This document shows, in pieces, positions 55,825 to 59,209 of a stretch of 64,000 bases of DNA. Both the position numbers and the translations under genes were made by a program. The DNA comes from Pelosinus sp. UFO1 (lineage in GTDB: Bacteria; Bacillota; Negativicutes; DSM-13327). Location of the stretch: positions 3,836,001-3,900,000 of the forward strand of contig NZ_CP008852.1 in assembly GCF_000725345.1 (NCBI RefSeq), given 5' to 3'. The notes beneath the pieces are model-generated. The model was given only the letters and a program-made list of their open reading frames with translations, made no database searches and was not told the DNA's origin. Within the stretch, counting starts at the first letter, position 1, and every line of letters starts with the position of its first letter.

Positions 55825-55980
55825 TTATTTATCAGAAGTTAAAGATCCCCTCTGATGAATATTCTTTGTATATTCTTCCAAAAGTTTCTCTAATCTATTT
55901 AGAACTTCTATTTCATGACTCTTACTTTTCGGTTTGTTTAAAAGACTTATAAGATACTCTATTTCTTCGTGATACTCCAC
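55825..55980 (-). CDS. small 51-aa helical protein downstream of the HD-GYP gene
   Basis: GTG 55980, preceded by GGAGGAGAGTAAATC that lies in the last codons of the HD-GYP gene, opens a 51-codon frame: MEYHEEIEYLISLLN, then a KPKSKSHE linker and the helix EIEVLNRLEKLLEEYTKN. Two charged helices resembling Spo0E-like or small helical-hairpin regulators (I note the shape only; the Spo0E SQELD motif is absent). Only three bases separate it from the HD-GYP stop, and a terminator follows. Thus both are one mRNA. No family recognised. Confidence 0.55.
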   Translation of the reverse strand: MEYHEEIEYLISLLNKPKSKSHEIEVLNRLEKLLEEYTKNIHQRGSLTSDK

Positions 55981-55983
55981 GAT

Positions 55984-56688
55984 TTACTCTCCTCCTAATA
56001 AAAAGAAATTTACCAACTCAGAATTAAAGTGAGTTCCTCTTCCATCATGCAGGACTTGAATCGCTTCCTTTCGTGTCATTGCTTTACGATAGGCCCGATC
56101 TGAAGTAATCGCTTCATAAACATCTACAATACTTAATATTTGTGAAATTAAAGGTATTTCTTGACCTACTTTCCCAAATGGATAGCCCTTACCATTAAAT
56201 TTTTCATGGTGACAGAGAACTGCTTCTGCTAGTGAATCCAATTTCTTTATATTTTTCAAAATTTCAAAACCATATTGGGAATGCTTTTTTATAATTTTAA
56301 ATTCATTTCGAGTCAACTTCTCAGGCTTATTTAATATATGGGGGGGGATTTTTATTTTACCTATATCATGAAGTAGGGCAGCCGACGTTATATCATCAAT
56401 AGTGGAAACTGACAGGTTAAGTCTTATTGCAAAATTGGCTGCCATACCGGCTACCTTATAAGAATGCCGCGCTGTCCCTGCATCATGTTGATTTAATAGG
56501 TTAAGCAAATGATTTATTATTTCTAGCTTCGTTTTAGAAGCATAATGAAATGTAATTTTATTATTTTTTAGCAAATTTTGTAGTATACTAAATCCTCCTT
56601 TTAAAAAAGCAACAAAAAGTAATGTAACACAATATACTTGTGTTACATTACTTTTTGCTGCTAACCCATTTAAAACAAGAATCTGCAT
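55984..56688 (-). CDS. HD-GYP domain protein, c-di-GMP phosphodiesterase type
   Basis: 234 aa as drawn. Residues 53-230 are an HD-GYP domain: His75 (ARHSYKVAG), HD at 107-108 (LLHDIGKIKIP), HHE at 160-162 and GYP at 168-170 (HHEKFNGKGYP), and DVYEAITSDRAYR near 188. This is the c-di-GMP hydrolase signature. No receiver or other sensor domain is attached. The frame is open back to ATG 56688, but there it passes through a recombination-site-like palindrome (56613-56657). A strong ribosome site (AAGGAGG, 56594-56600) beyond it is followed only by an ATA or a distant TTG (56574). The start is therefore uncertain and may depend on orientation of the adjacent invertible segment. Confidence 0.85.
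   Translation of the reverse strand: MQILVLNGLAAKSNVTQVYCVTLLFVAFLKGGFSILQNLLKNNKITFHYASKTKLEIINHLLNLLNQHDAGTARHSYKVAGMAANFAIRLNLSVSTIDDITSAALLHDIGKIKIPPHILNKPEKLTRNEFKIIKKHSQYGFEILKNIKKLDSLAEAVLCHHEKFNGKGYPFGKVGQEIPLISQILSIVDVYEAITSDRAYRKAMTRKEAIQVLHDGRGTHFNSELVNFFLLGGE
56613..56657. repeat. left inverted site of the putative invertible element
   Basis: 20-bp perfect arms (56613-56632, 56638-56657) around spacer TATAC. The inner 23 bp (56624-56646: GTAACACAA, TATAC, TTGTGTTAC) is the exact reverse complement of 57406-57428. Reading toward the HD-GYP gene it is also a terminator-like hairpin followed by T-rich sequence. Confidence 0.8.
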
Positions 56689-56773
56689 GGTAATCCATTT
56701 TTTGCTATTTTTTCTTTAGTTTTAAAGTAACATATTATATACTATATAACAAATAAGAACCATTAAATGGGAA

Positions 56774-57331
56774 GTGATTAAAATAGAGTATGTAGAACCA
56801 ATACGATGTAAAGGTCAGATAAGTAAAATCAAAACTTATTTAAAAAATAAAAATTTGCGCGATTACTTACTTTTTGTTCTAGGCATCAATAGTGGTTTAA
56901 GAATATCTGACTTATTATTACTGACTGTAAATGACGTAAAGGAAAAAGATAGAATCCAGCTTAGAGAAAAAAAAACAGGTAAAAATAAAGATTTTCCCCT
57001 TTCAGACACATGTAAAAAAGCTATAAAAGAATATCTAGATACAATTCAGCTTAGTAACGGTTGCCTATTTAAAAGTAAAAAAGGGGATAAACCCATATCT
57101 CGAATACAGGCTTATCGAATTATTAATCAAGCTGCACGAACAACTGGTATTACTGACGCAATTGGCACCCATACACTGCGTAAAACCTTTGGATATTGGG
57201 CCTATAAAAAAGGTGTAGATATAACTAAAATTCAAAAGCTCCTTAACCATTCAGCCCCTAGTGTAACATTAGCTTATATTGGAATTACTAAAGATGAACT
57301 TGACGATATTTATATTAATTTAAATCTATAA
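56774..57331 (+). CDS. small tyrosine recombinase (FimB/FimE-size invertase-like)
   Basis: 185 aa, consisting of the catalytic domain only, without the N-terminal SAM-like core-binding domain of XerC/D; FimB/FimE have about the same length. All catalytic positions are present: Arg43 (GLRISDLLLL), a Lys at 70/72 in the TGKNKDFPL hairpin, His133 and Arg136 (HTLRKTFGYW), His159 (LLNHSAPS) and the nucleophile Tyr168 (VTLAYIGI). GTG start with only a weak ribosome site (TGGGAA), suggesting low expression. It sits alone between two inverted 23-bp sites, so these are its likely substrate. It probably inverts the segment that carries it. Confidence 0.88.
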   Translation: MIKIEYVEPIRCKGQISKIKTYLKNKNLRDYLLFVLGINSGLRISDLLLLTVNDVKEKDRIQLREKKTGKNKDFPLSDTCKKAIKEYLDTIQLSNGCLFKSKKGDKPISRIQAYRIINQAARTTGITDAIGTHTLRKTFGYWAYKKGVDITKIQKLLNHSAPSVTLAYIGITKDELDDIYINLNL

Positions 57332-57358
57332 AAAAAATGCAGTAAAAAAAAGGATAAT

Positions 57359-57388
57359 TTGAAAAAATGACGTAATATGTTTTATTAT
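57359..57388 (+). promoter_or_regulatory. outward-facing promoter inside the invertible segment
   Basis: TTGAAA (57359-57364), 18-bp spacer, TATTAT (57383-57388), pointing right through the right-hand site into the 3' end of the ABC gene (antisense). After inversion it would face the HD-GYP gene. Confidence 0.5.
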
Positions 57389-57399
57389 GGGAAATTTGT

Positions 57400-57434
57400 A
57401 AAGAGGTAACACAAGTATATTGTGTTACCTCTTT
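57400..57434. repeat. right inverted site of the putative invertible element
   Basis: 15-bp perfect arms (57400-57414, 57420-57434) around spacer GTATA. The inner 23 bp (57406-57428) is the exact reverse complement of the left site. Also a plausible bidirectional terminator for the recombinase and ABC genes. Confidence 0.8.
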
Positions 57435-57475: not shown

Positions 57476-59209
57476 TTACCTACTTATTTTTTTTACTGCC
57501 CAATTGCCCGCCCCATTTAGTTCTATTTTCATCTGATGGTATTTCATAAGCGTGCTACGGTGTCCTACGCTAACAATAGCTGTATTTGTCATTTTATCGA
57601 CAATCATTTGATAAATTGCTTGTTCTGTTTCTTCATCTAATGCAGAAGTGGCTTCATCAAGAAATAGCCAGCTCGGCCTTTGTAATAACACTCGTGCAAA
57701 AGCAACCCTCTGTTGTTCCCCCAAAGATAAGGTCTGCCCCCAATCAGCTACTTTATGCAGTTTATCAACTAAATGAGGCAATTTGCACATCACCAAAATC
57801 TCTTGTATCTTTTTGTCATTATCCCCTTTTACAATCTCGGGATAAAATAAAATTTCCCGCAGAGAACTAAAAGATAGGTAAGACTTTTGAGGCACAAACA
57901 TCACTTTTTGTCCCTCAGGAACGATTATTGTTCCTGAGGCATAAGGCCAAATACCGGCAAAAGTACGTAGCAGTGTACTTTTACCACAACCCGATGCCCC
58001 CATAATAAGTAATTTTTCAGAAGGCTTGATGGACAAAGAAAAGTCCTTTATTAAATTTGACCCATCAGGTAAAAGAACCTGCAAATTTTTTGCCGAATAA
58101 GTAGAAAAAATTTTCCGGGAAATATCTAACTTAGATGCTTTTGGTGATTGGCTTCGCACCATTTCCATGCTAATTAAAAAGTTATTTAACCGATTCACTA
58201 CTGCCCGCCACTGAGCAAGACGAGTAAAACTATCAACAACAAAGGAGAATCCTGTCTGAACATGGTTATAGGCGTCGACAATCTGAAACATTTGTCCTAA
58301 GTGAATTTGACTACTAAAATAACGAGGCGCTGCAGCGATAGATGCAAAGATTGCAGATATTTGCGTATAAGCAGATGTCAACCATGTTATGTGTTTACGT
58401 ACTACCATAATATTTTGGTAAGTCGCAACTACTTTACTAAAACCTTGCCCAAAACTCCATGTTTCTTGTTTTTCTCCTCCGTACAGGGCAATACTCTCTG
58501 CATTTTCCCTGAGTCGCATTAAACTAAAACGAAAATCGGCTTCATACCGTTGTAAATCAAAATCCAGTTTAACTAAGGGGCGTCCAGTCTTTACCGTCCA
58601 ATAGGTACCAAAACCTGCATATAAGATTGCTACCCACACTAAATAGCCATAAATAGAAATTAGGTACCCACCAACAGAAAAGGTAACAATACCTGAGAGG
58701 TTCCATAAAATCATAATAAATGATAAAACCGTAACAAGATCCTGTAGTAAATCTAAGGAAAGTCTAAGTGTCAGCCATACAAATAATTCAATATCCTCAC
58801 TAATCCTTTGATCAGGGTTATCCGTATCATGATCGGGAGATAGCTGTAATAAATAATAGGTTTTATTATATAACCAATCGGATAAATACCTCTCTGTCAT
58901 CCAACGACGCCATCGAATGTGAAGCAGCATACGGGAATAGATTTGGTAGCCTCTTACCACAACCAAGCAGCCGGCTAATATACTGTACTTCCCAATGGCC
59001 TCCATAAAGCCCCCATAGTCGTGACTTTGGATCACTTCATAAAAATTAACTTGCCAGGTATTAATCAACACTAAAATATATACAATTCCCAGATTCAAAG
59101 AAATTACCGTAAGTAATAATCTCCAAGCGGACCACTTTTCCTCCGAGAACCAATAAGCCCTAGCAATTTTCCAACTAGTTAATAGTAGGGCAGCTTTCCC
59201 TTTCCTCAT
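57476..59209 (-). CDS. SbmA/BacA-YddA type ABC transporter, fused permease-ATPase
   Basis: 577 aa. Residues 25-330 are an ABC_membrane_2 / SbmA-BacA-like membrane domain with about six helices; landmarks are WQVNFYEVIQSHDYGGF, RWRRWMTERYLSDWLYNKTYYLLQL and the NPDQRISEDIELF motif. Residues 360-575 are the ATPase: Walker A GASGCGKSTLL, signature LSLGEQQRVAFAR, Walker B LFLDEATSALD. YddA-like exporters/importers of this group move peptides, B12-like or lipid substrates; the exact one is unknown. It ends 48 bases before the right inverted site. Confidence 0.9.
   Translation of the reverse strand: MRKGKAALLLTSWKIARAYWFSEEKWSAWRLLLTVISLNLGIVYILVLINTWQVNFYEVIQSHDYGGFMEAIGKYSILAGCLVVVRGYQIYSRMLLHIRWRRWMTERYLSDWLYNKTYYLLQLSPDHDTDNPDQRISEDIELFVWLTLRLSLDLLQDLVTVLSFIMILWNLSGIVTFSVGGYLISIYGYLVWVAILYAGFGTYWTVKTGRPLVKLDFDLQRYEADFRFSLMRLRENAESIALYGGEKQETWSFGQGFSKVVATYQNIMVVRKHITWLTSAYTQISAIFASIAAAPRYFSSQIHLGQMFQIVDAYNHVQTGFSFVVDSFTRLAQWRAVVNRLNNFLISMEMVRSQSPKASKLDISRKIFSTYSAKNLQVLLPDGSNLIKDFSLSIKPSEKLLIMGASGCGKSTLLRTFAGIWPYASGTIIVPEGQKVMFVPQKSYLSFSSLREILFYPEIVKGDNDKKIQEILVMCKLPHLVDKLHKVADWGQTLSLGEQQRVAFARVLLQRPSWLFLDEATSALDEETEQAIYQMIVDKMTNTAIVSVGHRSTLMKYHQMKIELNGAGNWAVKKISR

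Follow-up and report, generated by a model that had tools for sequence, protein, structure and literature searches.

We read a segment of about 0.8 kb in the window (the whole 64,000-nucleotide stretch of Pelosinus sp. UFO1 DNA analysed here) as a self-contained invertible switch, which would control a neighbouring HD-GYP gene through a hairpin at the junction together with the direction of a promoter. We give this reading a probability of roughly 85%, the effect on expression being what we infer from the sequence. Which of the two states is ON, action in trans and the consequences for c-di-GMP are likewise treated as predictions in what follows.

The segment is bounded by a left recombination site at 56624-56646 (plus strand; core GTAACACAA-TATAC-TTGTGTTAC) and a right site at 57406-57428 (minus strand), which is the exact reverse complement of the left one. 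Both are exact matches, and the earlier note, which had described exact inverted 23-bp sites with spacers TATAC and GTATA, was accurate in all coordinates and sequences. The repeats are inverted with an identical crossover region, as in an inverton. When the 23-bp pattern was searched with up to three mismatches, just two occurrences were found in the window, against an average of 0.04 in shuffled sequences. A pattern search of the whole genome (5,115,410 bases, one contig), one of the checks proposed earlier, returned one further good match, a lone copy at 3598927 with one mismatch, and no second site pair besides that of the window, this copy being partnerless. As the genome holds no other pair, action in trans on other loci does not apply to the UFO1 strain. 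The lone site (3598927-3598949) has the spacer GTACA, lies within a palindrome, CCCAAAG..CTTTGGG, and stands about 100 bp ahead of a gene assigned by eye to the CPBP-type proteases.

Each window site forms the core of a longer palindrome, a feature absent from the earlier note. That of the left site covers 55 bp (56608-56662; 25-bp arms and a 5-nt loop) and that of the right site 35 bp (57400-57434; 16-bp arms), the latter lying downstream of both the recombinase and the ABC transporter genes. A terminator scan found the left palindrome to read, on the minus strand, as a terminator-like hairpin with a T run, directly upstream of the Shine-Dalgarno sequence of the HD-GYP gene. These extended palindromes are probably central to the operation of the switch.

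Between the sites lies the gene of a tyrosine recombinase (56774-57331, plus strand; GTG start), which is 185 aa long and consists of the catalytic domain only (Phage_integrase, PF00589, E=2e-29). The residues R43, K67, H133, R136, H159 and Y168 were invariant across 42 relatives, which bears out the earlier description of a catalytic-domain-only tyrosine recombinase with all R-K-H-R-H-Y positions; both the integrase catalytic domain and the R-K-H-R-H/W-Y residues of this class are thus present. In sequence the protein is nearest to Xer-type catalytic domains, and it falls outside the models of the FimB/FimE-type invertases, scoring 52.9 and 59.6 bits against cut-offs of 221 and 222 (NCBIfam PRK09870 and PRK09871). 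Further along the segment, a promoter-like site (TTGAAA-N18-TATTAT, 57359-57388, plus strand; consensus match only) points outward across the right site. It overlaps a motif, AAGGA..TGACGTAATAT, which is present in the recombinase, TTTGC and TTTAC switches of the genus. The form AAGGA-N12-15-TGACGTAATA was considered as a general promoter of the strain and rejected, since its single occurrence in the genome is inside the window segment.

The presumed switched gene (55984-56586, minus strand) encodes a 200-aa HD-GYP domain protein (PF13487, HD_5, E=3e-39), whose translation contains HDIGK and HHEKFNGKGYP. By its sequence it has both the HD and the GYP motifs of an HD-GYP c-di-GMP phosphodiesterase, and enzyme activity is predicted. 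Its Shine-Dalgarno sequence, AGGAGG (56594-56599, minus strand), is kept in the orthologs. The start codon, as placed by comparison, is ATA (56584-56586, minus strand; position 56586), 7 nt past AGGAGG, where the orthologs have ATG. In the orthologous genes the start, ATGCTTCAAAAT, lies 32-33 nt beyond the site. At that codon, here 37 nt from the site, ATACTACAAAAT is read in the window strain and also in G006, a near relative; the ATA start may lower translation of the HD-GYP protein. According to the earlier note the left site interrupted the 5′ end of this gene. The orthologous starts instead put the site 37 nt upstream and, together with the good Shine-Dalgarno sequence, place it in the 5′ leader, outside the coding region. 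Translation from the upstream ATG at 56688 would pass through the hairpin, and this codon is an unlikely start.

Downstream of the HD-GYP gene lies a gene for a 51-aa protein (55825-55980, minus strand), orthologs of which also follow the HD-GYP gene in relatives; the protein, 51-61 aa among relatives, has no Pfam match. In two other genera its relatives come first among the genes next to switches (L016:2355-2522; L019:976-1158). An SbmA/BacA-type ABC transporter gene (57476-59209, minus strand) reads toward the switch and is a conserved anchor of the locus, which is itself conserved throughout the genus.

Judging from the assembled genomes, the segment is invertible in the genus. G004 and G002 agree in the flanks of this locus, which are collinear and 94-95% identical, but the segment, 96% identical, is inverted between them, so that the search of related genomes that had been suggested for either orientation found both; the window has the orientation of G002. 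The TAGAA and GATGC switches likewise occur in both orientations among relatives. One inner end of about 80 bp occurs twice in the draft genome G001, adjoining the ABC-transporter flank in one place and the HD-GYP flank in another. Of 46 sites in drafts, 13 lie exactly at a contig end, where 0.003 were expected, and in G006, the closest relative (ABC transporter 98% identical), both outer flanks of the window locus stop at the core and the segment is missing. Such ends are to be expected where an assembler meets both orientations, since the two part at the final base of the core. The opposite orientation, whose lack from every product would have told against inversion, is represented in the drafts by both junctions or by breaks exactly at the sites. 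The flipping that the earlier note proposed is thus borne out in relatives, where both orientations (the other mark of an inverton) and both junctions occur, while the complete genome of the window strain holds one orientation only. An A/G difference in the outer half-site of G001 travels with its flank, which places the crossover in the centre of the site. An integron-like, single-strand use of the palindromes was considered and set aside, as an outer half that stays with its flank fits ordinary crossover in the spacer.

The palindrome at each site is made up of an outer arm, which belongs to the chromosome, and an inner arm, which belongs to the segment. At the HD-GYP-facing junction the predicted fold is -36.7 kcal/mol as sequenced versus -14.3 when flipped, and at the right-site junction -32.0 versus -14.6. 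Arms of at least 8 were found at 24 junctions; 2000 swaps of the inner arms between loci gave 5.1 such junctions on average and never more than 13. Arm matching was never seen in both orientations of one switch. By prediction, then, a junction terminator hairpin of the cwpV type is present in one orientation only, and in some relatives the stem extends over the Shine-Dalgarno sequence. Among recombinase switches with a target hairpin, the hairpin orientation was that in which the recombinase points away in 8 of 8. For the pairs listed with a long arm in either orientation, it was the sequenced orientation that had it in 19 of 21, which suggests a bias to OFF; in a few of these the long arm lies at the non-target end.

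The earlier note had envisaged a plain flip of a promoter. The promoter-like site in the segment fits such a flip, but the terminator split over the junction is probably at least as important. A simple invertible promoter, for which promoter direction alone matters and the extended palindromes are ordinary bidirectional terminators of the neighbouring genes, could draw on the site at 57359-57388, on the pdcB switch, which works with an internal promoter (PMC9286219), and on the many junctions in other genera that are without long arms. Some switches in other genera have no extended hairpin in either orientation, and there a promoter flip alone may suffice. As an account of the window locus we nevertheless hold it to be rather unlikely, though by no means negligible, since the stems are split over the junction, form in one orientation only, stand well above the swapped controls and lie at the ribosome-binding site of the target.

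In the switch that we favour, in which junction hairpin and promoter direction act together, the recombinase would exchange strands within the central spacers and so invert the segment of about 0.8 kb that holds its own gene. In the sequenced orientation, predicted to be OFF, the inner arm by the HD-GYP leader is complementary to the outer arm, and RNA over the junction would fold into a 25-bp hairpin that is followed by a U run and ends shortly before the HD-GYP ribosome-binding site. The outward promoter and the recombinase gene face away from the HD-GYP gene, toward the second hairpin. On inversion to the predicted ON state the arms would cease to match and both promoter and recombinase would turn toward the HD-GYP gene, and transcription from the promoter, the recombinase and possibly the ABC transporter would run into the HD-GYP and 51-aa genes. 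In related species, sister switches with the same arms and private spacers would be acted on in trans and would control chemoreceptors or other HD-GYP genes.

Relatives of the recombinase (about 70-87% identity) were found throughout the Negativicutes, often with several paralogs per genome, and sites of the form GTAACAnAA-N5-TTnTGTTAC flank most of the closer relatives. A strict site search found sites in 17 of 60 relatives, and a control search of the 60 with the reversed site pattern gave almost no matches. Many site pairs are without a recombinase, the two sites being inverted and about 200-260 bp apart. In all 30 of 30 adjacent pairs the spacers were inverted-identical, with 17 different spacers and common arms; the two sites of a pair thus vary together, independent variation being the outcome that the earlier note had named as counting against a switch. 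The common arms presumably serve binding, and a spacer private to each switch would be expected if strand exchange needs spacer identity.

Sites and the recombinase family co-occur (13 genomes with both, 36 with neither, 7 and 4 discordant; Fisher p=2e-5), the switches and genomes being related by descent and the counts, here and elsewhere, not independent. Three genomes with sites and no recombinase (G005, G006 and G034) are draft assemblies in which the contigs break off at the recombinase-switch spacer, so that the segment was probably lost in assembly; G003, also with sites and no recombinase, lacks any site of the recombinase switch. Several switches accompany a single close recombinase in G002 and in G017. 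The first genes facing switches, 19 of which were scored, comprised 12 chemoreceptors, 6 HD-GYP genes and 1 sigma factor, and the window adds a further HD-GYP gene. Set against the 42 chemoreceptor matches above the cut-off and roughly 21 HD-GYP matches in the window genome, the share of these two kinds (18 of 19 targets) is far above background. HD-GYP and chemoreceptor genes recur next to other switches, and the site is retained in the HD-GYP leader across the genus; both observations support the choice of this gene as the target, as first claimed. For the second HD-GYP switch of the genus (TTTAC), no switch-bearing ortholog was found in the window genome, the best match being the window HD-GYP gene itself. 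In one genus the gene opposite the recombinase switch encodes a sigma-70-type factor and no chemoreceptor or HD-GYP protein (L025:669-1253, minus strand; L117).

A more far-reaching reading is a phase-variation network across the Negativicutes, in which a self-flipping recombinase would serve several spacer-insulated switches of chemoreceptor and HD-GYP genes, and each switch would bring together or part the two halves of a terminator in the leader; we rate its chances slightly below even. If it were true, clonal cells would differ combinatorially in sensing and c-di-GMP turnover, and the ON state would couple recombinase transcription to the target.

A different account of the same distribution is a single-gene mobile element, with the sites as its terminal inverted repeats and the apparent switches as insertions and remnants. 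Such an element would fit the recombinase paralogs, of which a genome may carry several at separate loci, the related small integrases found in phages and on plasmids, and the lone site in the window genome. Yet the window locus is conserved over the genus; many pairs enclose no recombinase, and from one species to another the sequence on either side of them remains collinear; 18 of 19 cases lie next to MCP or HD-GYP leaders, which would be unexpected for random insertion; and identical inverted sites invert and do not excise. We regard this account as improbable. Poorer still are the prospects of static inverted repeats, old palindromic terminators at which recombination has ceased, which would suit activity in relatives only and the single orientation of the complete genome, but hardly suit 95% identical genomes that differ in orientation, one assembly with both junctions, breaks at the exact base and private spacers that stay identical within pairs.

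The switch proposed here, with its recombinase inside and its split hairpin, shares features with several known systems. In the fim switch of E. coli, FimB and FimE, which are catalytic-domain-sized tyrosine recombinases, invert a short segment; their genes, however, lie outside it, and the window recombinase falls far below the cut-offs of the NCBIfam fim models. Mpi is a serine-type recombinase with mainly surface polysaccharide promoters as targets, in contrast to the tyrosine recombinase and the HD-GYP and chemoreceptor genes considered here. The likeness lies in one recombinase thought to serve many switches with a common site, as is described for Mpi as the master invertase of Bacteroides fragilis (PMC5903667).

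In the cwpV switch of Clostridioides difficile, a 195-bp segment lies between inverted repeats in the 5′ leader, with RecV as the recombinase (PMC2784873). It resembles the window locus in the OFF-orientation terminator proposed across the repeat, in its leader location and in its use of a site-specific recombinase, but RecV is encoded elsewhere, the segment is without gene or promoter and the target is a cell wall protein (PMC2784873). Inversion at C. difficile pdcB switches a c-di-GMP phosphodiesterase, with a promoter within the segment and an upstream promoter whose output depends on orientation; it differs in its EAL-type enzyme and in the segment, which is 174 bp long, encodes no recombinase and lies 840 bp upstream of pdcB (PMC9286219). 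For Clostridia, invertible sites have been reported in the neighbourhood of chemotaxis genes and of HD-type phosphodiesterase genes, and for Providencia stuartii an 844-bp invertible segment enclosing a recombinase (PMC5903667). The former share the kinds of neighbouring gene and the latter the recombinase inside the segment, but they belong to other bacterial classes and were reported as read signatures, and the part of that source used here describes for them no common site family, private spacers or split hairpins (PMC5903667).

Phase variation has been studied mostly for the surface structures of gut bacteria and pathogens, and a median of 11 invertons per genome is given for Negativicutes-like Firmicutes of the gut (PMC11892184). 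A literature search on Pelosinus and phase variation, and on the switch family or its site rules, found nothing. In the present case, bet-hedging appears to involve the chemosensory receptors and c-di-GMP enzymes of environmental anaerobes that reduce metals. The simple sequence rules (common arms, private spacers and split terminators) would make switches and their states readable from a genome, and the switch family would account for recombinase segments lost from draft assemblies. At L092, L096 and L121 an HD-GYP gene is closely followed by a chemoreceptor-like gene downstream of one switch, which suggests that these pairs are phase-variable two-gene units. Small integrases 57-66% identical to the window recombinase occur on Alicyclobacillus and other plasmids, several per plasmid.
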